Source of the DNA: a virus
IMG/VR virus record: IMGVR_UViG_3300017971_000751
Location: 1-24,330 of that record
Reading direction: 5' to 3' (one strand)
DNA: 24,330 bases
Shown here: positions 4,017 through 19,411 of the stretch, in pieces
Numbering within the stretch: position 1 is the stretch's first letter
Layout: every line of letters starts with the position of its first letter
Notes under the pieces: model-generated
Told to the model about the DNA's origin: nothing
The model's database searches: none
The model's input: only the letters and a program-made list of their open reading frames with translations
Position numbers and translations under genes: made by a program

Positions 4017-4591
4017 CCTTGGTCGGCGTCTACGCTAAACAACTCTTGCTGGCAGATAAATAGTCGATCCGTGCCGCTGTAGAATAAAGGATGGAATAAT
4101 TTGCGATTCCAGTACCATACGTTGACCATCTTTTTACGACCGCCAACATAGCTCGGCCCGATGCTCTCGTAATGTGATGCGTCGTGTAACTTGCGCACAT
4201 CGGCACTCACCCATTCTTCCCGCCGGTTGGTGTTGCCGCAACGGTTTCCGCCGTGGTCGTGGATCGTGTAATAAACGGCTTGCGTCGTTTCGTAGGCGAA
4301 GTCAATGAGCGCCTGCAGCCGGTATTCTTCTAGCCCGTATGACCCATACTTCGTCACCGTCTTGTGTTTGATTTCGTGGTGTTCGCCTGGTGCCGACCAA
4401 ATCGTGATATCCGGCAGTGTGAACAGGTTCCATTTATCCTCGCGTATAGAGTACGCCTGCGCGGATGCTTCGCGGCCGATCTGGTGCGGGGTCAGCATCA
4501 CGCCAGTATCCGCCATCATCTTGCAAAACTCGCGCTCCCAGAATTCGCCCAACTTACGATCACCGTTTACGTCGCCGCAATGATCGGTCAT
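4013..4591 (-). CDS. PD-(D/E)XK nuclease-like protein
   Basis: The 192-residue protein shows a plausible PD-(D/E)XK nuclease core: an N-terminal helix GEFWEREFCKMMAD (15-28, with E16 and E19), then LPD61-ITIW, then H-E73-I-K75, followed by a helix with Q93 (YRLQALIDF). This spacing of D, ExK and a trailing helix is typical of restriction-type or resolvase-type nucleases and predicts metal-dependent DNA cleavage. The C-terminal half, with many H, N and W residues, is unassigned. I chose the ATG at 4591 because it overlaps the methyltransferase stop as ATGA; an upstream ATG at 4606 is possible. Coupling to the adenine methyltransferase suggests either a restriction-modification-like pair or a repair/recombination nuclease. 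The family call is from motifs only. Confidence 0.6.
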   Translation of the reverse strand: MTDHCGDVNGDRKLGEFWEREFCKMMADTGVMLTPHQIGREASAQAYSIREDKWNLFTLPDITIWSAPGEHHEIKHKTVTKYGSYGLEEYRLQALIDFAYETTQAVYYTIHDHGGNRCGNTNRREEWVSADVRKLHDASHYESIGPSYVGGRKKMVNVWYWNRKLFHPLFYSGTDRLFICQQELFSVDADQG

Positions 4592-5550
4592 ACTTCGTTT
4601 CCCCATACTTGCCAGCCGCGCCGCTTTGTGCGGGCAAACATTTCAAGCCGCTCGCTGGCCTTCGCTGGCGTCATGGATTCAACCAACTCGTAGAACTCGG
4701 CCGGCTTCTCTGAGTGCTTGCCGCGTTTCCAGTTGAACCACGTTCTATCACAGATTTGTTTTTCCTTGAGCGACCCGCGGCGGGCGTACAGAATAAACTC
4801 GGTCGTCAGTCGGTAAGCGTCCCCGAGTCCCACGCCCCGCGGTGTCTTTGCCCAGACAAGCAACACAGACGGTTTGAATCCCCACGCCCTCGCCACTTGG
4901 TAGGATGCCTCCACGTATTTGTTCGTAGTCCACAGATACAAATGGGCATCGTCGGCAGATCGGTCTTCGACTGGCAACGCCTTGATCTGGTCGAGCCCCA
5001 TCTGTTCGTATGTCAAATGATCGTGCCCACGTTCCCCCGTCCCGTGGAATACATCCGGCCCGGTGTCGAGCCGCCACGGCGGATCGGCTACGATGCAACG
5101 GAACACACCCGCGGGAAGGTCTGGTGTCTCTGGCATCATGCCGAGACGGTTGCGGACAAGGGACACCAGAGCGCGGCGGGACTTTCGCCATTCGTCATCG
5201 GTTAATTCGCAGCCGTCAAAGGCGTGGGATAAGATGCGGAATTCTTCCCGCCGTTGCTTGTCAATAGTGTCCGCGTGCGGACCCTTTTTTCCTCTGCCTC
5301 CAGCCGTCCCAGTCCCAAGCAGTTGCCCTATACGTGCCTCCACTCGCCGTTGTGCCCCCAGCATCGGCCGTTGCAATTCCTTGTCTCGCAGATACTTCTC
5401 CAGCGCCGCCGCCCGCAGTCGGTATTCATCGAGCGTTTCCACGTCGTCTATCTCGGCAACGTGTAACGCGATTTGCTGCTCGATGTCTTGGACCACGGCG
5501 ATTGACACTTTGGCGCCGACTTTCGGCACAACCGGCAAGTTAGCGGCCAT
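4588..5550 (-). CDS. MT-A70 family adenine-N6 DNA methyltransferase
   Basis: The 320-residue protein contains CIVADPPWRLDTG with the catalytic DPPW at residues 156-159, then HLYLWTTNKY and the FKPSVLLVWAKTPRG and TTEFILYARRG blocks of MT-A70 methyltransferases, which transfer a methyl group from S-adenosylmethionine to adenine N6. The first 140 residues are helical and charged and probably bind DNA or a partner; such extensions occur in phage and plasmid MT-A70 proteins. I chose the ATG at 5550 because GGAGG sits seven bases upstream. The frame is open in phase to 5646, but that stretch encodes the promoter leader and a terminator hairpin. Its stop overlaps the nuclease start as ATGA. It may protect phage DNA from host restriction or from the neighbouring nuclease. 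Confidence 0.85.
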   Translation of the reverse strand: MAANLPVVPKVGAKVSIAVVQDIEQQIALHVAEIDDVETLDEYRLRAAALEKYLRDKELQRPMLGAQRRVEARIGQLLGTGTAGGRGKKGPHADTIDKQRREEFRILSHAFDGCELTDDEWRKSRRALVSLVRNRLGMMPETPDLPAGVFRCIVADPPWRLDTGPDVFHGTGERGHDHLTYEQMGLDQIKALPVEDRSADDAHLYLWTTNKYVEASYQVARAWGFKPSVLLVWAKTPRGVGLGDAYRLTTEFILYARRGSLKEKQICDRTWFNWKRGKHSEKPAEFYELVESMTPAKASERLEMFARTKRRGWQVWGNEV

Positions 5551-5565
5551 CCCCACACCTCCAAT

Positions 5566-5599
5566 AAAAAACCGCCCGGCTGAGACAGCAACCGGGCGG
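5566..5599 (-). terminator. intrinsic terminator in the methyltransferase leader
   Basis: On the transcribed strand CCGCCCGG (5599-5592), a 12-base loop and CCGGGCGG (5579-5572) form a perfect eight-base GC stem followed by six T (5571-5566). It can end the tail operon transcript. Because GGAGG and the methyltransferase ATG follow within 25 bases, it can also attenuate that gene. Confidence 0.8.
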
Positions 5600-5642
5600 C
5601 GGTGATTACCGGCAATCGTGGATTGTGGGCCTGCTGTCTCAG
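5580..5642 (-). promoter_or_regulatory. attenuator-like pairing between leader 5' end and terminator loop
   Basis: The segment CTGAGACAGCA at 5642-5632 of the leader is perfectly complementary over 11 bases to the loop of the terminator, TGCTGTCTCAG at 5590-5580. Pairing would compete with or lock the terminator hairpin. The upstream copy is also part of an 11-base dyad, TGTCTCAGACA (5635-5645), at the predicted transcript start, so a protein operator is an alternative reading. Confidence 0.5.
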
Positions 5643-5651
5643 ACAACCCCC

Positions 5652-7365: not shown

Positions 7366-7379
7366 CGTATCATCTCCTG

Positions 7380-8384
7380 CTACTGGAATAATTGGCCCAT
7401 TGGGGTTTCGATGTATTTGGAATAGATGAGGTATTTCGTCGGCTGCGTTGAGCCGAGCACGGCTCCAAACCCGTCGAGCCGAACCGGGTGCCGGACTGGT
7501 TGCCCGTGCACGTCAGTTAGGGCTACGACGTGAATTGCCTCGCCGGTTGTTTCAACGGGATCGTAATTCACATCCCATGCGCGCTCGAATCCAGCGTCAG
7601 GAATTTGCAGCCGCCAGGTGCTACGGTCCTCAGATACATTGATGTCCGTGCGCCAGTAGAAGATGCCGTTTTTGCGGCCCCACGTCCCGGTGATCGAATC
7701 CACGCGGGCGGTAGCGATGTCCCATTGCTTGTTATATTGCAGAGGATGGTGGCCCAGTTCCGGGTCCGGTACGTTCAGCGTGTACGTCAGGATTTGGCTG
7801 TTGACGGCGTTCTGGAATGCGGCAACTTTCCATTCGGGATACGTCGCCGCGTATTGGCTGATGTGATGCGTGCGGATCGGGTGCTGCGTTTCCAGCGGCG
7901 GGTCGATCAACGCGCCAGCCGAATTGACAACCGGACCGCCGCTGCCGATCGGTCTGCCGATATGATCCATCGCATTAGGCCCGCGATAGACTGCCTCGAG
8001 CAGCGGCCTGGACTCGTAGCTTGTCGAAAAACTAACGTCGTCTATCCACTTCGTCGGGTCGGCTTCCAACTCGCCGTCTTCGTTGAGGTGGTTGTCGGGG
8101 TCGTCGCTGTCGTTCGGTGCCCATTGACTCGTGACGATCCAATACAGCGATTTGTCTTTGTCCCGTTTTGGGCTGACGCTTTGCAGGTATGCGCCCGTGT
8201 CCGTCTCGTCACCTTCCGCGTATGTCGTTTCCCCCACGGTTCCGATCGCTGCCGCAACAGTCTGCACGCCGTCGTCTACGTCGTCGGTCACGACACGGTG
8301 AACGGTCGTGTACGTGTTGGCACCGCCGAGCTTGACTTGTCCGGTCGGCTGTGCGCGGAGCAGGGATGTCGATGTAACGGTCAT
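7380..8384 (-). CDS. putative tail-tip protein downstream of the tape measure
   Basis: The 334-residue protein starts TVTSTSLLRAQPTGQVKLGG and is beta-rich with many tryptophan and tyrosine residues (YWIVTSQWAPN, EWKVAAFQNAVNSQ, NKQWDIATARVDSI). Genes directly after the tape measure in siphoviruses usually encode distal tail or tail-tip proteins, and the size fits; I cannot assign it to Dit or Tal from sequence. Its ATG overlaps the tape measure stop as ATGA, so the two are translationally coupled. The central stretch about residues 85-135 is very acidic (DSDDPDNHLNEDGELEADPT). It acts in the virion tail. Confidence 0.6.
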   Translation of the reverse strand: MTVTSTSLLRAQPTGQVKLGGANTYTTVHRVVTDDVDDGVQTVAAAIGTVGETTYAEGDETDTGAYLQSVSPKRDKDKSLYWIVTSQWAPNDSDDPDNHLNEDGELEADPTKWIDDVSFSTSYESRPLLEAVYRGPNAMDHIGRPIGSGGPVVNSAGALIDPPLETQHPIRTHHISQYAATYPEWKVAAFQNAVNSQILTYTLNVPDPELGHHPLQYNKQWDIATARVDSITGTWGRKNGIFYWRTDINVSEDRSTWRLQIPDAGFERAWDVNYDPVETTGEAIHVVALTDVHGQPVRHPVRLDGFGAVLGSTQPTKYLIYSKYIETPMGQLFQ

Positions 8385-9697
8385 AGTCGATTCACCACGA
8401 CTTCTATTTCGTCGCCGGTGCCGATGGCATCTGCCAGCGCGTCGTTAGTCTGCTTCTGCTCTTGCAGTTGCTCGAATAGCAACTTGTTGGTTTTCCTTTG
8501 TTCTTCCGCTTGCTTGCGTGCCACTTCTTCATCTCGCCGCTCGCCGTAGGTGCGGGTGCGCATGCCGATTGCGTCTGTGCCGAGCCGCTCGCGGATCTGC
8601 TTATTGGTCATCGTGCCGCCCGCTTGGCCGCGGGGGGCGTCTTCTGACCTTACTTCCGGTTGCTTAGCCGCATCTTCTGCCGCCGCTGCTTGTTCTTTCA
8701 ATTGCTCGGTTGTCTTTTTGCTCGCGTCCTGCATTCGCTGTTGTGCATCTTCGGCGGCGGATGCGGCCTTTTTATGTGCGGTGCCTACGTTCTCAGCCGC
8801 TTGCTCCTCTTCCTCGAATGCGCCACCGACAAGGCCGATGAGTGCAAGGAATGGGTGCGCCAACGCTGCGCTTTTAGTGCGTTCCATGTTTTCTGCTAGA
8901 TACGCGACGATTCCCGACAGTTCCCGCATGAGTGGCGTGATGGCTTCGGCAAATGCCAAAAGTGCTTCTGATGTCTCGGGCCCTATCTCGCGGAACAGTC
9001 CTTGCACGGTCTTGTGTAGCTTGTCCATCGCGTCGTTATATTCTTCGATCTTGGCGGCTTCCTCGCGACTGAACGTCAGGCCAAGTCGCTCGGCTTCATC
9101 GATGTACTCTATGAGTCCCGCCTTGCCCTTCATGAGAAGATTCATCATCTCCTGACCGCTCCGCCCGTAGATCTGTTGGGCAATGGCAGCCCGCCGCATT
9201 GGTGATTCGATCCTCGAAATCTGTTCTGCGATTTCCATGAACGCCTGCCCTGGGTCCATCGCGGCCAATCGCTGAAGGTCTAGGCCGAGTCCTCTGAGTA
9301 GCTTAGCGTTTGCTGTGTATCCCGCCGCAGCTTCGCCGAGTACTTTGTTTTGTCGTTGGATTGCCTTGGTCACCATTTCCGTAGTTGTGCCGGTTTGCGC
9401 GGCGGCGTGCTGCAATCCGACAAGCATATCAATGGCGACACCGGTACGGTCCGATAGCTTGGCGATTTCGTCCATCTCGCGGAAGGCGTCCGTCAGCAGC
9501 GACCAGACTTTATGCAACGCGCTGATGGCTGCGCCGACACTAAAAAAACCGGCGGCCAATCCGACAACGCTTGACTTCAAACCGGCAAAGCTGCCCTGCG
9601 TTGCCTTGGCCTGACGGCCCACGGACTTCATGCCCTGTACCGCCTTTGCATGACGGCTAACGATGTTGATGGCGAGGGTGCCGACTGTAGAAGCCAC
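8381..9697 (-). CDS. tail tape measure protein
   Basis: The 438-residue protein has the tape-measure hallmarks: an N-terminal TVGTLAINIVSRHAKAVQGM, long alanine-rich helices, hydrophobic segments (VVGLAAGFFSVGAAISALHK; HPFLALIGLVGGAF) and a coiled-coil C-terminus (EEVARKQAEEQRKTNKLLFE). The motif FMEIAEQISRIESPMRRAAI with IYGRSGQEMMNLL is common in phage tape measures. It spans the tail lumen and sets tail length; at about 1.5 angstrom per residue it predicts a short tail near 65 nm. The start is GTG at 9697, three bases after the micro-protein stop, with a G-rich ribosome binding site inside that gene. The T7 tract near 9542-9548 is ordinary coding sequence (GFF). Confidence 0.88.
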   Translation of the reverse strand: MASTVGTLAINIVSRHAKAVQGMKSVGRQAKATQGSFAGLKSSVVGLAAGFFSVGAAISALHKVWSLLTDAFREMDEIAKLSDRTGVAIDMLVGLQHAAAQTGTTTEMVTKAIQRQNKVLGEAAAGYTANAKLLRGLGLDLQRLAAMDPGQAFMEIAEQISRIESPMRRAAIAQQIYGRSGQEMMNLLMKGKAGLIEYIDEAERLGLTFSREEAAKIEEYNDAMDKLHKTVQGLFREIGPETSEALLAFAEAITPLMRELSGIVAYLAENMERTKSAALAHPFLALIGLVGGAFEEEEQAAENVGTAHKKAASAAEDAQQRMQDASKKTTEQLKEQAAAAEDAAKQPEVRSEDAPRGQAGGTMTNKQIRERLGTDAIGMRTRTYGERRDEEVARKQAEEQRKTNKLLFEQLQEQKQTNDALADAIGTGDEIEVVVNRL

Positions 9698-11668: not shown

Positions 11669-12106
11669 TTATGCTGGTACAGCTTCGTGATGCTGCACAA
11701 CAAGATCGAAATGAGCAACACACCGCGGCCGGCTGCTGCCGTCTATCGGGTATTCGTCCCGCTCTCCAAAGTTCTCGTGAGCCAGATCGGTAACGGTCAC
11801 GAGGTCGTCACCGACTCCCCACTGTGCGCCGCAGCTCGGTGGCGTGCTGACTCGCACCGCCTCCCGCACCGCGTATGCTTCGGTCGGATCGTCCGCGAAG
11901 CAATCAATCTGCATCCGCGTCTGTGCGGAGCCGCAGCCGCCCGTCAAGTGCTGGTCGCTTTCGCCGCTGATGATGCGGACGACGATAACCGGCTCCGTGT
12001 CGTTCTGCGGAAGAAACTGCGGGCGAATACGTGTAGCCGTCACCAACGCGGTTACGGCCGCTTTGGTTTCGAGGTATTGCGTGTACGCTTTGCGGATGTC
12101 GCTCAT
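11669..12106 (-). CDS. tail completion/terminator protein (DUF3168-like)
   Basis: The 145-residue protein starts with a helix SDIRKAYTQYLETKAAVTAL and then shows the strand pattern of tail terminator proteins: RIRPQFLPQNDTEPVIVVRI, a variable loop, TRMQIDCFADDPTEAYAVRE, and the C-terminal VAHFDLVVQHHE. Proteins of this type cap the tail tube where it meets the head. Its place after the gp10-like gene and before the tail tube matches HK97-type gene order. ATG 12106 overlaps the preceding stop as ATGA. Confidence 0.72.
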   Translation of the reverse strand: MSDIRKAYTQYLETKAAVTALVTATRIRPQFLPQNDTEPVIVVRIISGESDQHLTGGCGSAQTRMQIDCFADDPTEAYAVREAVRVSTPPSCGAQWGVGDDLVTVTDLAHENFGERDEYPIDGSSRPRCVAHFDLVVQHHEAVPA

Positions 12107-12732
12107 CGTTTTGCAAACTTGTGTCCGGGTGGCCAGAGGTGAGCTTTTTGTTTGTCCTTGGCCAGTTCGATTGTTAGCCGTTCCTCAAATTTCAGTTCAA
12201 AGGCCCGAACGGCTGCGGCCTTCTGGCTGTCCCATGCCGGGCGAATGAACGGTTTTTCCTTGGCTCCAGGGTGATGCACTTCCGGTGCGAACTTTCCGTT
12301 GGGCAACGGGCCGAGCACGGTGCTAACGCCAATTCCTGCGAGTCGGGGATTGATCGTGTGGGCCTCCGTTCCGAATTCGACTAGATGCGCATATTTGACG
12401 GGGTTGATTTTGTTGCCCTTGTCATCCGTCTGCGGCATACTACGAATCCCAACGACGAGAAGCCGCGTTGACGTGCCTCGAACTTTCGCCAATTTCGTTC
12501 CGACCGCTTTCCATAATGCCCGCGTTCGTTCCGTGCCTTGTGATTTGAGCCGCCGCCGCATTTCTTTCCGCACGGGCCGGGATGCTGCGGTTAGGGCTTG
12601 CCCCATTACCTTCTTGTGAATCTTAATGGGCAACTCGTGAAATAACTGGGCAAGTTCTTCCACGCCGTCAATCGTCATGGAGAACGGCTGACTCGTTGAT
12701 CCGACTCCGAGAAATGCCGGGTCCATTCCCAT
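12103..12732 (-). CDS. HK97 gp10-like head-tail joining protein
   Basis: The 209-residue protein shows the gp10-like pattern: SMTIDGVEELAQLFHELPIK, a helix with VMGQALTAASRPVRKEMRRR, YAHLVEFGTEAH, and the C-terminal FIRPAWDSQKAAAVRAFELK. The HLVEFGT and RPAWD elements are the most recognisable. These proteins are needed to join heads and tails or to complete the tail. I chose the ATG at 12732, which overlaps the previous stop as TGATG; the second ATG at 12726 is nearly as good. An insertion with HHPGAKEKP before the RPAWD motif is common in the family. Confidence 0.78.
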   Translation of the reverse strand: MGMDPAFLGVGSTSQPFSMTIDGVEELAQLFHELPIKIHKKVMGQALTAASRPVRKEMRRRLKSQGTERTRALWKAVGTKLAKVRGTSTRLLVVGIRSMPQTDDKGNKINPVKYAHLVEFGTEAHTINPRLAGIGVSTVLGPLPNGKFAPEVHHPGAKEKPFIRPAWDSQKAAAVRAFELKFEERLTIELAKDKQKAHLWPPGHKFAKR

Positions 12733-13109
12733 CACAGCACCTTCCGCACACCTTGCACCGCCAACCATTGCCTCGTCCCGTATGGGTCGGCGGCAAACAC
12801 AATTTCAATGAATTCACTGGTCGATTGCCGATAAATCCGATAGTCCATCACGGCCGGCGTATAGCTCGGGTCGAGTCGCTCTTGGTAACGCAGCATCACC
12901 ACGACGTTCGCCGTTGCGACAACCTGCACGCCTCGCACTCGTTCCCCGCCGCTGACGGCAATCCACTCGGCGGGAACGTCGCGGGCGATTACTCCCGCGT
13001 CTGTCGTCCAATCCGGCACCGGATAGTTCGCCGCGTCGTCAGTCGCATTCGGCTTGCGGATGGTCACCAGCCAACGAAGGTCACCGGCGCCGCGTCGTTT
13101 TCCGGGCAT
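12732..13109 (-). CDS. head closure / head-tail adaptor protein
   Basis: The 125-residue protein starts GKRRGAGDLRWLVTIRKPNA, the usual opening of SPP1 gp16-like or HK97 gp7-like head closure proteins. It continues with EWIAVSGGERVRGVQVVATA, VVMLRYQERLDPSY, the Y-R-I-Y strand (MDYRIYRQ), and the final strand of the small beta barrel (RQWLAVQGVRKVL). It closes the portal channel after packaging and presents the surface for tail binding. GGAGG precedes the ATG at 13109 by seven bases, and the stop overlaps the next start. Confidence 0.78.
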   Translation of the reverse strand: MPGKRRGAGDLRWLVTIRKPNATDDAANYPVPDWTTDAGVIARDVPAEWIAVSGGERVRGVQVVATANVVVMLRYQERLDPSYTPAVMDYRIYRQSTSEFIEIVFAADPYGTRQWLAVQGVRKVL

Positions 13110-13186
13110 CGGGTTTCCTCCACGGCGACGGGCCAGCCACTAAGCCGCCACGTGCTCGTAATCGTCAACAGGCCGCACAGTGTCAT
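13064..13186 (-). CDS. possible 40-residue gene in the connector cluster
   Basis: A short frame starts at ATG 13186, one base after the TGA of the gp6-like gene, and fills the 78-base gap before overlapping the head closure gene by 46 bases. It encodes TLCGLLTITSTWRLSGWPVA followed by a proline-containing polar tail. The tight stop/start spacing is like that of real neighbours, but there is no clear ribosome binding site and no recognisable family, so it may be chance. Confidence 0.28.
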   Translation of the reverse strand: MTLCGLLTITSTWRLSGWPVAVEETRCPENDAAPVTFVGW

Positions 13187-14418: not shown

Positions 14419-14730
14419 TTACTCGGTTTCCACTTCCTCGCCCCAGCCATACTCCTCGTGCCCGCGGTGGGTCGCGTCGAGTCTGGCTAGGATTTGTTCC
14501 ATCAGGGCAATCTGTTGGGCAAGCAGTTCTTCGACTGTTTGCTCCTGCCTTACCCAACTACCGGACTCGGACCAAACGAACCGCTTGCCCGTGTCGATTT
14601 CGGTAAACACCGATCCAACCGGCGGCGTTCCGTCAATCTCGATGCCGGTTGATATGTCGGCACGGATACCCGGCTTCTCCTCGGTTGAGTAGCCGCGAAA
14701 CCGCTTTGCGCCTGTTTCCAGTTGCGTCAT
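14419..14730 (-). CDS. small phage protein with C-terminal coiled coil
   Basis: The 103-residue protein contains PPVGSVFTEIDTGKRFVWSE and GSWVRQ, a short beta motif (D-T-G-K-R-xx-W-x-x-x-x-W) often seen in phage structural proteins and attributed to virion attachment. It is followed by a coiled-coil helix (TVEELLAQQIALMEQILARL) and an acidic end. The ATG at 14730 overlaps the previous stop as ATGA. The coil suggests oligomerisation, perhaps a surface fibre or linker. Function is not known. Confidence 0.65.
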   Translation of the reverse strand: MTQLETGAKRFRGYSTEEKPGIRADISTGIEIDGTPPVGSVFTEIDTGKRFVWSESGSWVRQEQTVEELLAQQIALMEQILARLDATHRGHEEYGWGEEVETE

Positions 14731-14990
14731 CGGTTAGACTCCCGTGCGCGCATGAATCCCGGCACGTCCGTCGCCGGCTCGGGGGTGGGGTTGGTGACTT
14801 CCGCGACAGGTTCGGGCTCGGGCATCACGTCGCCCGGTGGTAATGCCTCGGCCGCCTGCACGGCAATTCTCACGCTGCCGGCGTGGCGGCTGAGTACGTC
14901 GCCAGCCGCGTTGCAGACGTGATACTTGCGATCGCTGCCCTCACCGTGATTGCCGGTTACGTTGTAGCCGTTGACGAGTCGCGTCTTCAT
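14727..14990 (-). CDS. small hypothetical protein, proline-rich linker
   Basis: The 87-residue protein begins with a small domain (KTRLVNGYNVTGNHGEGSDR, KYHVCNAAGDVLSRHAGSVR, IAVQAAEAL). It ends in a proline/glutamate-rich linker (PPGDVMPEPEPVAEVTNPTP) and PGFMRARE. I do not recognise it. GGAG precedes the ATG at 14990 by eight bases, and the gene follows the glycosyltransferase-like gene by 11 bases, so it shares that transcript. The linker would suit a scaffold or adaptor, but this is speculation. Confidence 0.6.
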   Translation of the reverse strand: MKTRLVNGYNVTGNHGEGSDRKYHVCNAAGDVLSRHAGSVRIAVQAAEALPPGDVMPEPEPVAEVTNPTPEPATDVPGFMRARESNR

Positions 14991-15001
14991 CGCTATCGCT
15001 C

Positions 15002-15766
15002 CTATGTTGGCACCAGTTCCGGCTCGGCGGCGGGCTTTACCATATCCGCCAAGTCGGCAAAACGCCGCGAAAATGTGTCGTCAATTTCCATGTCCGAAAT
15101 GTGCGTGACCGTGATCGTTGTATCAACCCATACGTCGGCCTGCACTTCCGACCGAAGGCGCCACACCATCTTTGTGTCCATGTCGGCCGCGCGTTGCTGC
15201 GTATCGTGGTCGCGCGGGTAGTACCACCAAGGTTTGTCGAGAGCTTCGATGGTCTTGCGGTCGAACAGAAGCACACCCGAGCCGATCACGTCCACCCGTT
15301 GTAACTCACCGTCCGCCGGGTCAATCGGCACGAACATATCCGGCGTCACGTCCATACCCTTAAACTCTCGGACGTTCGGTTGATCGTTGCGGATTCTCCA
15401 GCCCATCGGCTGAAACGGTTCCATATTTTGCCACGGGACGTAACCGCGGAATGGAACCAACGCGGAAATCACACCGCCCCACGTCTCGAAATATCGGTCG
15501 AGCAAGCGGTCGAACATATCGAGCGGGTGTACCTGATCGGCGCCGACGATGCAGATAAAATCAGCGTCCCAATTCAGCGCCTGTAGGCACATATCAATGT
15601 GGCGTGCCGCCGGGTCGCATCCGTTTCCGGCGAAGAAATCGCAAAGGAATCCCGGCCGCCGGAAATGTGCCATCATTCGGGCAAGGTTCGTGCTGAACTT
15701 CGACCAAATGAACGGACTTGACCAGGGCGTTACAACCGCCAATTTGTGCGGACCATGTACGGACAT
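15002..15766 (-). CDS. glycosyltransferase-like protein (GT-A fold)
   Basis: The 254-residue protein has the features of phage-encoded family-2-type glycosyltransferases: an N-terminal strand KLAVVTPW, a helix, then NWDADFICIVGADQVHPLDM (residues 66-85), where the usual DxD nucleotide-sugar/metal motif is represented by DAD or ADQ. The acceptor-side VDVIGSGVLLFDRKTIEAL (159-177), DMDTKMVWRLRSE (195-207) and a final VDTTITVTHI with H222 match the later family motifs. It should transfer a sugar from a nucleotide-sugar donor. I chose the ATG at 15766, which overlaps the beta-helix stop as TAATG; a longer frame to 15853 lies inside that gene. The acceptor is unknown; virion proteins, phage DNA or host glycans are all possible. 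Confidence 0.72.
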   Translation of the reverse strand: MSVHGPHKLAVVTPWSSPFIWSKFSTNLARMMAHFRRPGFLCDFFAGNGCDPAARHIDMCLQALNWDADFICIVGADQVHPLDMFDRLLDRYFETWGGVISALVPFRGYVPWQNMEPFQPMGWRIRNDQPNVREFKGMDVTPDMFVPIDPADGELQRVDVIGSGVLLFDRKTIEALDKPWWYYPRDHDTQQRAADMDTKMVWRLRSEVQADVWVDTTITVTHISDMEIDDTFSRRFADLADMVKPAAEPELVPT

Positions 15767-16692
15767 TAGGTTGCCGATGTTGCGGGGACGAGGGTTGTGG
15801 CGCGCTCGCTGATTGCATCGCAGAAATAATTGTCCATGAACTGAAAGCGGCATTTGCGGACGGTCTTTGCGACCGCGGCGGCCTGACTGTAAAGTGCCGT
15901 GATGTAATTATGGGCGATGATGCCCGTCGAGTTCAGCGCGCCGCCGTCGATGGCGTTGTAGCTGGATGTGTCGCTGTTGTAAATCACGTTGTCTTTGATT
16001 ATCAGCCGGGCACTCAGCGTCGTCTCTCCGAAGATGACCGCGCCCGTCCAGGTGCCGCGGAAAATGTTGTTTTCGATCGTGACATCATTGGTATCCACGA
16101 GGTTGATACAGTCGGTCGCAGCACCAGCGCCATTCTCCGTGTTAAACACGTTATCGTGGATGTACGTTCGGTCAAATGCGTTGATGTCGATCGTGCTAAC
16201 GAACTCGTCGCCCGAGGTTTCCCAGGTAAAAAAGCAGTGGTCAATCTCGCAGTCGTGCGCGTCCACGTTGATTGCCACCACGGTTGATGCGGTCGAACAG
16301 TTGAGGATCAGATTCGACAATCGGCACCCGGCGGCGTCGAGTTCGATAGTGCCGTCCGTGCCGTCGTAATCGAACGTCGGACGGTTACTGCCGCGCCCGA
16401 GTCCGATGATCGTCAAGCCGATCTTGTCAACGACACAATCCGTGCCGGCGTCCAGCGCTTCGTTGTGGCCGGGCATACAATAGATGATGTCTCCCTGGCT
16501 GGCGGTTGCCAGTCCGATCGCGTAATCCAGGGTAGCGCACGGGCTGTCGGGGTGCGTGCCGTATCCGGCACCATCTGTGCCCGTGCCGGAGTGCACGAAC
16601 CAGCGGTCACCGGTAGTTACCGATTGGTCTTCGATGTTGAAGACGCCGCCGGGCGTATGGCGGCTGAACAGAGCGGTCTTGGTTCCGGCCAT
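15766..16692 (-). CDS. parallel beta-helix (pectate-lyase-like fold) protein
   Basis: The 308-residue protein starts AGTKTALFSRHTPGGVFNIE and then shows regularly spaced short strands with N, D and hydrophobic ladders (IGLTIIGLG, IELDAAGCRLSNLILNC, VVAINVDAHDCEIDHCFF, FDRTYIHDNVFNTENG, TNDVTIENNIFRG, ARLIIKDNVIYNSD, GIIAHNYI). This is the signature of a right-handed parallel beta helix, with about 20-25 residues per turn. Such proteins act as virion spikes, glycan-degrading enzymes or carbohydrate-binding decorations. The segment SPCATLDYAIGLATASQGDI near residue 50 resembles the start of bacterial beta-helix repeats. GGAGG lies six bases before the ATG at 16692. It sits between the sulfotransferase-like and glycosyltransferase-like genes, which suggests it may be the target or the sugar-binding partner of one of them. 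Confidence 0.78.
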   Translation of the reverse strand: MAGTKTALFSRHTPGGVFNIEDQSVTTGDRWFVHSGTGTDGAGYGTHPDSPCATLDYAIGLATASQGDIIYCMPGHNEALDAGTDCVVDKIGLTIIGLGRGSNRPTFDYDGTDGTIELDAAGCRLSNLILNCSTASTVVAINVDAHDCEIDHCFFTWETSGDEFVSTIDINAFDRTYIHDNVFNTENGAGAATDCINLVDTNDVTIENNIFRGTWTGAVIFGETTLSARLIIKDNVIYNSDTSSYNAIDGGALNSTGIIAHNYITALYSQAAAVAKTVRKCRFQFMDNYFCDAISERATTLVPATSAT

Positions 16693-16721
16693 GAGACTCC
16701 TCCTCGGGGTTCTAACCGTTG

Positions 16722-17522
16722 TTAGCGAAGGATAGCGGCGGCCGTCGGGTAGCCGTGTAGGTCCGCAAACTGATTGACTTCATGGAGCAATTCAGGGTCC
16801 ATGCGTTCCGCGAGTTGCTCCATTGTCTCGCGGTCGGGTTGATTCTTAATCTTGCGGCTAAAGATGCACTCGGCACCAATTTTTTCGGCGTACTCTTTGA
16901 TCCACTCGGCAACGAGCGGATTGGATACACCCTCGGTTTCGGTGATCGTGTAGCCGGCGTTCGTGTCGGTCTTCACCTCGGCCAGTGCCGCGTCGATTTC
17001 GTCTGCCGTCCGTTCGGCGCCGATCGTGCGCAGTAGGTGCCCGATAGTGCGGGTACTGAGCCGGTCAACGTGATAGGTGAACCGCTGCCGCCCAACTAAT
17101 GCTTTTTCGATGGCAGCATTCCAATCCACCACGAACGCCGCAGCCCGGTCGATCCGCCGCTCATACGTCCAGACGCGCGGTGCGTAAATGGCGATGGTGT
17201 CGCGCACGGATAGCATTGAGCGTGCTTTGAACGTGTCGCGGTCTTTCAAAATGGAATTGCGGTTACTCAACGAGTCGATGACATGCCACGGGTTGCGGAT
17301 CGTATGTAGCACGGGCACCGACTCGGGAAACAACGGCAATAGGGTCCACGCCATCCAGGACGACTCGCCGCCGGTATCCCCGGCCCACCATCGCAAGCAG
17401 TCCACGACGGTTGCCAGCGGTCGAAGGTGTGTCTCGTGAGTACACATCACACCCAGCGCCGACAGCAACCGCGCGGCGTACTTCGTGGCGGATCGGGGAG
17501 TACCAGTGACGATGAATCGCAT
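16722..17522 (-). CDS. sulfotransferase-like (PAPS-binding P-loop) protein
   Basis: The 266-residue protein begins with RFIVTGTPRSATKYAARLL, the 5'-phosphosulfate loop of sulfotransferases (G7-T-P-R-S-A-T-K14). It carries the 3'-phosphate site VLHTIRNPWHVIDSL with R76 and S84 eight residues apart, as in PAPS-dependent enzymes. The intervening H29-E30-T-H32 and the later KDRDTFKARSMLSVRDTIAI fit the family, but I cannot place the catalytic base with certainty. The C-terminal portion ends in a helix (LAERMDPELLHEVNQFADLH) of unclear role. It would sulfate a carbohydrate, lipid or tyrosine. The ATG at 17522 is seven bases after the preceding stop with only a weak ribosome site. A sulfotransferase between capsid and connector genes is rare as far as I know; a P-loop kinase is the main alternative. 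Confidence 0.75.
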   Translation of the reverse strand: MRFIVTGTPRSATKYAARLLSALGVMCTHETHLRPLATVVDCLRWWAGDTGGESSWMAWTLLPLFPESVPVLHTIRNPWHVIDSLSNRNSILKDRDTFKARSMLSVRDTIAIYAPRVWTYERRIDRAAAFVVDWNAAIEKALVGRQRFTYHVDRLSTRTIGHLLRTIGAERTADEIDAALAEVKTDTNAGYTITETEGVSNPLVAEWIKEYAEKIGAECIFSRKIKNQPDRETMEQLAERMDPELLHEVNQFADLHGYPTAAAILR

Positions 17523-17528
17523 CCGTGG

Positions 17529-18005
17529 TCAGTCCGTTATGACGGTCGGCGGTGTCGCCTGCGGGTAGCGGGTTTCGATGATCGCAAGTGCGGTTATGTT
17601 GTTGGAATTGTTCCCGCCGGTGTCTGCCAGTTGGATACAGTCGTATCCACTGGAGAACTTGGCCGGGTCCCATTCGATCACTACCAACTGGTCCCGCTCG
17701 GTCGCGGTCGTGGTGTTGATGGAATAACTGGCCGCATCCGTCTGCTTGGTCAACGTGTCGCCGCTCAAATTGACGGTTTTATTGACCCAAATCGGGAACG
17801 TCGCGGTGACGGCCGTGGTTGTCGAGTTCGCCACGTCGGTAGACTCGACTAAGGACAACGTGCAGTCGGTGTCACTGTCGCCGATGTGGCTAACAATGAA
17901 CCAGACCTTGAGCGCGTCCTTGCAGGAAATGGTGTCGTAGGTGACGGAATCGGCTGCCGCCGTCGCACCCACAACCACGATCTTGAAATTTTCAGGAAGG
18001 TTCAT
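17529..18005 (-). CDS. putative capsid-associated structural protein
   Basis: The 158-residue protein follows the major capsid gene directly and is mostly beta: NFKIVVVGATAAADSVTYDT, ISCKDALKVWFIVSHIGDSD, LTKQTDAASYSINTTTATER, QLVVIEWDPAKFSSGYDCIQ, ITALAIIETRYPQ. The final pattern (LVVIEWDP-F-GYDCIQL..ALAIIETRYP) is familiar from small phage virion proteins beside the capsid gene that probably coat the capsid or neck. GGAGG lies seven bases before the ATG at 18005. It may be the surface on which the sulfotransferase and glycosyltransferase act, but that is only a positional inference. Confidence 0.65.
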   Translation of the reverse strand: MNLPENFKIVVVGATAAADSVTYDTISCKDALKVWFIVSHIGDSDTDCTLSLVESTDVANSTTTAVTATFPIWVNKTVNLSGDTLTKQTDAASYSINTTTATERDQLVVIEWDPAKFSSGYDCIQLADTGGNNSNNITALAIIETRYPQATPPTVITD

Positions 18006-18016
18006 TGACCGTCCTC

Positions 18017-19411
18017 CTAACTACGGGTTTGCAGGGTGATGGTCGGGCCGACCGTGTTAGAACTGCCCTTGTAGGGCGTCAGACTCGACGCGAGCCAAGG
18101 TTGCGAATCGACCGCGAAAACAAATCTGAAGACCTGTTCGAGGTAATCGAATCGCAGGTGCATGGAAATTGCGGACTCGATGCCGCCTTTCGTGCCGGTG
18201 CATTGGTAGTCAAGGTTCGTCAGGATGATGTCGCCCTCGGTGCCGAGTGTCGCGCAATACTCGACGGGCTGCACGGGCAGGCCCATCAGCGTGCCGTAAG
18301 GAGAGCTGACGAGTTGGTTCTGCGGCAGGTAGACGGGGACGCCGCCGGTTCCGACCGCAACGTGCATCTGTAGCAGTTGCGGCAGGATGTCTTGGTTGAT
18401 AAACCAACGGGCGCCGCGAATAGCGGACGGGATCAACCGGGCATACATCTTCATAATGTTTTCCGCCACGATCGTCGTAGCGGCTTGGCCCGTTTCTTTG
18501 CTCACCCTGACTCGCGGCTTGTTGACGGCACCGGCCAACAGCCCACGAGGTTGACCCGCACCCGTACCGTTGATGATCGTGTCCGAAACCATGAACGCGA
18601 TTTCGTCGGCCGCTGCCCTGGAAAGGAACGTATTCAGCGCCGGGGCGTTGGCAAGTAATTTGTCGGTGACGTAGACCAACACGGCGAGCTGATGCGGCTC
18701 CAGTTTGATCTGCCGGAACGTCGGAGCGCTGGCTGTGAGTTGAGCGCCTTCCGCGATCCAGTATCCACGGACGCCGCCTTGCCGGCTGCCGGTCGCTCGG
18801 CTCGTTTCCGCGCTGGCGTTCAGTGTGAGCGAGTCGCCGACGACTGGATGTTGATCCGTGAGCGGCAACAGGTTGCTCTCGTTCTGTTGCATCCTGTCCC
18901 AGATGGCCGTCACGAATGCGGGTGGGACAAGAAAACCGCCGTCACTGCCGATCGTCTGGCCCATGCCGGTAATAGCCGCCAGCGGCGCAAGTCGCTCATC
19001 GCGTGCGGTTGCACCTGGCGTACTCGCGGCATGTACGGATAGCGCGAACGCGCCGAGGTCGTCGTAGCCGCGGTTCGGCTGCGTTTCGCTGGCGGGGCCG
19101 TGCCCGGTCAGTCCGCCGCTAATCTCGACGCCTTGATTCTCGCCGGCCGTGCGGATCACGCGGGCCGACTTCTCATCTTCGAGCGCTTGCCGCAAGTTTT
19201 GGATTCGCGGCTCCAGGGTGTCGATCTTGGCCGTGAGTGCCTCGACCGTACCTTGCGCCGTGGTCTGCTGCTGCTGTTCTTCCTCGGTCAAATCGCGGTT
19301 GTCGGCGGCTTCTGCAGCGGCCAAGATAGATTCGATTCGCTGCCGGGCTTCCGCTCGCTGCTCCCGCGCGGCTGCCAGGGCGTCGAGCATCCTCTTGAGT
19401 TCCGGGTTCAT
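18017..19411 (-). CDS. major capsid protein (HK97 fold) with scaffold domain
   Basis: The 464-residue protein has the classical HK97 layout. Residues 1-90 form a charged coiled coil (LDALAAAREQRAEARQRIES), the delta/scaffold domain that the protease normally removes. After a linker, the body starts around GQTIGSDGGFLVPPAFVTAI and shows LAVLVYVTDKLLANAPALNT, ISDTIINGTGAGQPRGLLAG-like residues, and WFINQDILPQLLQM, typical of the E-loop, axial and peripheral domains. It builds the icosahedral head. The ATG at 19411 has AAGGA eight bases upstream. It is preceded by a 188-base non-coding leader with a terminator-like hairpin, unlike its tightly packed neighbours. Confidence 0.93.
   Translation of the reverse strand: MNPELKRMLDALAAAREQRAEARQRIESILAAAEAADNRDLTEEEQQQQTTAQGTVEALTAKIDTLEPRIQNLRQALEDEKSARVIRTAGENQGVEISGGLTGHGPASETQPNRGYDDLGAFALSVHAASTPGATARDERLAPLAAITGMGQTIGSDGGFLVPPAFVTAIWDRMQQNESNLLPLTDQHPVVGDSLTLNASAETSRATGSRQGGVRGYWIAEGAQLTASAPTFRQIKLEPHQLAVLVYVTDKLLANAPALNTFLSRAAADEIAFMVSDTIINGTGAGQPRGLLAGAVNKPRVRVSKETGQAATTIVAENIMKMYARLIPSAIRGARWFINQDILPQLLQMHVAVGTGGVPVYLPQNQLVSSPYGTLMGLPVQPVEYCATLGTEGDIILTNLDYQCTGTKGGIESAISMHLRFDYLEQVFRFVFAVDSQPWLASSLTPYKGSSNTVGPTITLQTRS

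Follow-up and report, generated by a model that had tools for sequence, protein, structure and literature searches.

Recurrent placement of a predicted PAPS-dependent sulfotransferase gene beside the capsid-decoration genes of tailed phages, with a possible role in virion modification

The gene considered here codes for a predicted sulfotransferase (ST) that depends on 3′-phosphoadenosine-5′-phosphosulfate (PAPS), and it lies among the head genes of a phage represented by IMG/VR virus record IMGVR_UViG_3300017971_000751. The entire record of 24,330 bp was analyzed and is called the window in the following, and related contigs compared with it carry L-numbers. The late genes of the window are encoded on the minus strand, starting with those for the large terminase subunit (TerL), the portal, a protease-like protein judged by eye to be of the S49 type, and an HK97-type major capsid protein (MCP) of 464 aa, which serves as the anchor of the module (18017-19411; Phage_capsid PF05065, E 2.4e-37). 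The MCP gene is followed by the genes for a predicted jelly-roll capsid-decoration protein of 158 aa (P158; 17529-18005), the ST of 266 aa (16722-17522), a predicted right-handed parallel beta-helix head protein of 308 aa (BH; 15766-16692) and a predicted GT-A-type glycosyltransferase of 254 aa (GT; 15002-15766). The small conserved gene p87 (14727-14990), which was recognized by its gene order and by 59% identity to its counterpart in L005, and further head-completion and tail genes come after these. The Pfam matches obtained in the window for TerL, the portal (PF04860) and the capsid protein mark them as genuine head neighbours.

An earlier note made from the sequence had described four consecutive genes after the capsid gene, the last two overlapping by TAATG, and we found both their coordinates and this junction to be correct. 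The four genes follow each other closely on the minus strand: 11 nt lie between MCP and P158, 6 nt between P158 and ST and 29 nt between ST and BH, and the spacing of -1 nt between BH and GT corresponds exactly to the TAATG overlap. The GT gene starts with the ATG at 15766, and the reading frame extending to 15853 represents only an alternative upstream start, i.e., a start-codon artefact. Ribosome-binding sites of the AGGAGG type are strong in front of P158 and BH and weak or absent in front of ST and GT, which in our reading fits enzymes encoded beside structural proteins. The base composition of the ST gene is similar to that of the neighbouring genes. No promoter-like site was found on the minus strand between 12000 and 24330, and searches for tRNA genes, Rfam RNAs and promoter-like sites gave nothing that would account for the placement of ST.

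By sequence, the ST of the window did not match any sulfotransferase in Pfam, PHROGs, NCBIfam or the PDB sequences. No member of the ST family was found among 50,697 phage records, and scans with the ST and P158 profiles over contigs from the genomes of 84,980 prokaryote species did not return a relative either. Relatives were obtained from IMG/VR, with 36-55% identity to the window ST. For five of these relative lineages, Sulfotransfer_3 (PF13469) was the first match, at sub-threshold E-values of 6e-5 to 1e-3. Because the relatives score at most 22 bits against the Pfam cut-off of 27 bits and the window ST does not match at all, we file the protein under the PAPS sulfotransferase superfamily rather than under PF13469.

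The two PAPS-binding motifs claimed in the earlier note are indeed present, namely the 5′-PAPS-binding loop GTPRSATK at residues 7-14 (17481-17504, minus strand) and the 3′-phosphate-binding motif R76-x7-S84 (17271-17297, minus strand). The residues T6, G7, P9, R10, T13, C27, H29, E30, W45, G52, E53, S55 and W56 are invariant in 11 ST homologues, as are R76, P78, D83, S84, R88 and N89. The invariant H29, E30, E53 and H73 represent candidate catalytic bases, as judged from the alignment only. Both motifs together did not occur once in 200,000 shuffled versions of the protein and are kept at 36-55% identity, so they are not due to chance. The superfamily is defined by a basic residue (Lys or Arg) in the PAPS loop, a Ser on the helix that binds the phosphate, a central sheet, and Glu or His as the catalytic base (PMC11625862); correspondingly, we find an Arg in the PAPS loop (R10), R76 and S84 eight residues apart, and a predicted central-sheet fold with strand-loop-helix and strand-turn-helix elements.

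An AlphaFold2 model of ST built from 5 sequences (predicted local distance difference test score, pLDDT, 70.8; predicted template modelling score 0.72) was compared with solved structures. The top 23 rows of a Foldseek search against the PDB were all sulfotransferases, with E-values from 4e-3 upward, and the 50 VIA-align matches listed were PAPS sulfotransferases without exception (Z 8.6-11.6), which bears out the earlier assignment as a PAPS-type sulfotransferase rather than a kinase. A nucleotide-kinase fold was tried as a candidate and rejected, with adenylate kinases ranking far below the sulfotransferases in the Foldseek search. The best VIA-align matches listed were human TPST1 (Z 11.6; 189 residues, 4.9 Å), a sulfotransferase of the curacin pathway (Z 11.5) and TPST2 (Z 11.3); rows within 1 Z unit count as tied, so the lead of TPST1 over the other sulfotransferases lies within the noise. 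ST resembles TPST1/2 and the sulfotransferases of polyketide pathways in its predicted fold over most of its length, in the Arg-type PAPS loop and in the R-x7-S motif, and it has candidate residues for a Glu/His base. It differs from them by an identity of only about 13-15%, a score below the Pfam cut-off and its location in a phage capsid operon, and the family has the motifs GE[SA]SW[MLI]AW and P[WF]xV[IV]DSL of its own. Judged from the model and the motifs, ST almost certainly has the fold and the cofactor-binding motifs of a PAPS sulfotransferase.

The gene product next to the capsid protein, P158, had been described as beta-rich, and its AlphaFold2 model, built from 23 sequences with a pLDDT of 88, indeed predicts a jelly roll like those of capsid decoration proteins. 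The nearest solved folds are the prophage-derived proteins YomS (Z 11.0) and XepA (Z 10.9), followed by neck or capsid chains of Agrobacterium phage Milano (Z 8.9) and phage 7-7-1 (Z 8.8) and the jelly-roll capsid protein 3j4u_H of BPP-1 (Z 7.0). In phage Milano, the jelly-roll minor capsid protein gp10, numbered beside the capsid protein gp9, decorates the capsid exterior (PMC10491603). P158 is similar to Milano gp10 and the BPP-1 cementing protein in its predicted fold and in its position after the capsid gene, as in the gp9-gp10 pair, but does not show a detectable sequence relation to them. In 23 phage sequences of the alignment its gene comes after that for the capsid protein, and this position after the MCP gene in many contigs is suggestive of a location on the outside of the capsid.

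BH and GT were judged by homology. The window BH gives only weak Pfam matches (NosD, E 0.036), but a relative in L009 with 61% identity to it lies above the cut-off of Pfam Beta_helix PF13229 (26.4 vs. 25.9 bits), which agrees with the parallel beta helix proposed in the earlier note. Genes for BH follow capsid or decoration genes in three phage backgrounds: in L044, BH comes after a capsid gene of the Mu gpT/Phage_capsid_4 type, and in the podovirus ctMEh928 a BH relative is located directly after the capsid gene (MW202647.1:24458-25357, corresponding to L045:7947-8846). The ctMEh928 relative is annotated as a lacto-N-biosidase, presumably by automatic annotation; if this annotation is real, BH could be a glycan-acting enzyme instead of a modified decoration protein. 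P158 and BH both resemble proteins of the head surface, and we infer that they face the outside of the virion.

The placement of ST within the head module, which the earlier note had described for the window, recurs in the related contigs. With near-identical contigs taken as one, ST is present in 12 lineages, and the gene adjoins capsid or P158 genes in 11 of them. It lies directly after P158 in nine (the window, L002, L003, L005, L011, L017, L018, L024 and L025) and directly after the capsid gene in another two (L019 and L043), which continue with another small beta-rich protein and BH. In 10 lineages of the set, BH follows ST either directly or one gene later. The corresponding empty site, with P158 followed directly by BH, is present in five ST-free relatives (L033, L035, L036, L037 and L038). 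Moreover, p87 comes directly after BH in L005/L016, whereas GT separates the two in the window. Because of these arrangements, ST and GT look like insertions into a core in which the genes for MCP, P158, BH and p87 come in this sequence.

The assignment of the fourth gene product as GT-A-like is backed by homology to known glycosyltransferase families. Its orthologue in L009, 63% identical to the window GT, matches the PHROG glycosyltransferase family phrog_34859 (E 9e-6), and an hhalign comparison aligned the window GT with one domain, the C-terminal one, of a double glycosyltransferase protein of Anp1/GT2-like type in L039 (E 2e-6, probability 89.5); a GT paralogue in L044 reached PF00535 at a sub-threshold E-value of 6e-4. 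At the position of the DxD motif, the window GT reads VGADQ, compared to VDADQ in the L044 paralogue and MDTDE in L039. In the GT of the window, L009 and L044, Gly takes the place of the first Asp (GADQ), and a non-standard metal site is therefore predicted. GT is located directly after BH in all three lineages having it (window, L009 and L044), across two capsid backgrounds. It is accompanied by a sulfotransferase in two cases only, the window and L009, the latter having a different arrangement that involves a fusion of a sulfotransferase and a glycosyltransferase. Of the trio of ST, BH and GT proposed earlier as a unit, the pairing of ST with BH holds in most relatives, and GT is the more variable partner. 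A search for GT-B enzymes (PF00534) did not yield any in 29 records.

The fusion in L009 is encoded at 7377-9017, shortly after BH and GT, and consists of 546 aa with an N-terminal Sulfotransfer_3 domain (PF13469, 40.2 vs. 27 bits) and a C-terminal glycosyltransferase-like domain (phrog_12406). Profile-profile comparison aligned it with the window ST in the PAPS loop only (probability 12), which leaves a close kinship unsupported. Other enzymes of glycan metabolism are found in related structural regions. The Mu-gpT-type head operon of L044 (2653-9225) contains a glycosyltransferase fused to an S-adenosylmethionine-dependent methyltransferase, BH, further GT-family genes and a hexapeptide acyltransferase. 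A dehydrogenase-like gene was also noted there by eye, and the region has the appearance of a glycan-modification island amid capsid genes. In the structural region of the ST-carrying phage L016, the stretch 11734-13160 codes for a cytidylyltransferase closest to PseF of pseudaminic acid activation (E 1.6e-39, below the equivalog cut-off) and, after it, for a 248-aa protein that resembles DUF115/Maf-like transferases by eye. L017 carries a GT2 gene (7662-8666; PF00535, E 9e-19) after a tail-tube-like gene and near the ST position of L004/L015, a place where surface-type enzymes may have another site of insertion. The structural operons of these phages thus repeatedly host genes for glycan-type enzymes, as seen in L009, L044, L016 and L017.

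Two further observations made by eye concern other genes. The MuF-like head protein of L003 (18-1289) is seemingly split by an intein-like segment (CLLPGTRV ... NGILSSNC), and the other side of the window record codes for an MT-A70-like adenine methyltransferase with a DPPW motif (4588-5646).

We propose that ST is a PAPS-dependent sulfotransferase that would be expressed with the capsid operon in the late phase of infection, take its PAPS from the host, and sulfate the head-surface proteins of the phage itself before or during assembly. The acceptor may be the protein P158 or BH, or a sugar that GT would have attached to BH, and the resulting negatively charged surface would change adsorption or shield the particle. 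We give about an even chance to the proposal that ST, and GT where present, act at a late stage of infection on surface proteins of the head of the same phage, with the virion named as the target from the gene position only. Several observations weigh against it. No recognizable GT is present in the ST-carrying contigs L018 (44 kb), L019 (27 kb), L025 (19 kb) and L043 (24 kb), so ST appears independent of this GT, and its acceptor may be a protein residue or a host-made glycan. The ranking of TPST1 as best structural match of the model provides a lead for a protein acceptor, but no more. Tyrosines confined to ST-carrying phages were sought in P158 by eye, and one alignment column showed a leaning in this direction, from which we draw no conclusion. 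Furthermore, the ST model is of moderate quality (pLDDT 70.8 from 5 sequences), and one of the 12 lineages (L004/L015) carries ST in the tail module. Another 14 contigs, again with near-identical ones taken once and with the five empty-site relatives among them, carry P158 but no ST, and many phages have P158 and BH without ST. Finally, in Mantel tests (r 0.10-0.27, p 0.09-0.24), the divergence of ST did not correlate significantly with that of MCP, P158 or BH.

Alternatively, ST and GT might alter the host surface during infection, e.g., the lipopolysaccharide or capsule, and thereby block superinfection or ease release, which we regard as unlikely. Serotype-conversion genes are normally expressed from prophages and located outside the head operon, whereas ST and GT are packed among head genes without a promoter-like site. 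The position of ST is kept in 11 of the 12 lineages, and neither a flippase gene nor an anchor gene was noticed beside ST or GT. However, phage glycosyltransferases changing the host serotype are well known (PMC12619734), bacteria possess Sulfotransfer_3-type enzymes that sulfate glycans, e.g., NodH (PMC11625862), and ST is predicted to be soluble and could meet glycan precursors in the cytoplasm.

Because its divergence does not clearly track that of the neighbouring head proteins, ST could also be cargo that repeatedly landed at one site, i.e., an auxiliary metabolic gene for the sulfation of a small molecule at a site near the capsid gene that merely tolerates insertions. The lineage with ST in the tail module would suit this explanation, as would the Sulfotransfer_3 genes without assigned role in OM43 phages and cyanophages (PMC10580990) and the listing of sulfotransferases as auxiliary metabolic genes (PMC8290583, PMC10829341). 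We consider it rather improbable, since a single ST family recurs at the same junction beside decoration genes in divergent phages and its base composition matches that of its neighbours. Sulfation or another modification of phage DNA bases in a hypermodification pathway would agree with the glycosyltransferase- and sulfotransferase-based nucleotide modification reported in phages (PMC10829341), but is very improbable, because no nucleotide-modification genes adjoin ST and the family is linked to head rather than DNA genes. That ST is a P-loop-like enzyme of another kind or a structural protein without catalytic activity is hardly to be expected: the window protein itself is without a sequence match to sulfotransferases in the databases searched, but its structural matches are sulfotransferases with adenylate kinases far below, the PAPS-motif residues are invariant, and its relatives approach Sulfotransfer_3.

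Returning to the proposed modification of the virion, phage-encoded sulfotransferases are already known from OM43 phages and cyanophage S-SRM01, where their role is stated as unexplained (PMC10580990). They are comparable to ST as phage-encoded sulfotransferases, but are described as accessory in the available text of that source, which reports no link to capsid decoration. Glycosylated virions are known from Che8 and other mycobacteriophages (Freeman et al. 2023, as cited in PMC12619734 and PMC11256854), and as proposed here, phage-encoded glycosyltransferases are thought to modify capsid or tail proteins, possibly as a shield. In contrast to the window, these phages are described in the available text without mention of a sulfotransferase, and in Maravista the genes for glycosyltransferases are found close to the genome end, outside the head operon. 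A full-text literature search of incomplete coverage did not return any publication that links a sulfotransferase of a phage to capsid genes, and the fixed coupling of a sulfotransferase to a capsid-decoration module appears to be new.

To our knowledge, sulfate-coated particles are not known for any bacterial virus. Somewhat short of an even chance, the phages compared here may represent a lineage of tailed phages with sulfated virions, whose polyanionic coat, comparable to the sulfated glycoproteins of eukaryotic cells, would be made by the phage itself by means of a variable modification module in the capsid operon. With similar reserve, we suggest that this module comprises the sulfotransferase, the glycosyltransferase and, in some phages, a methyltransferase, an acyltransferase and nonulosonic-acid activation, and that it targets the jelly-roll and beta-helix decoration proteins. 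The location of ST beside capsid-decoration genes in 11 of 12 lineages provides a positional clue to the target of phage sulfotransferases that are otherwise without an assigned role. If the proposal is true, these phage particles would be chemically tailored with sulfate, which bears on how they stick to mucus, biofilms and charged surfaces and how they escape binding.

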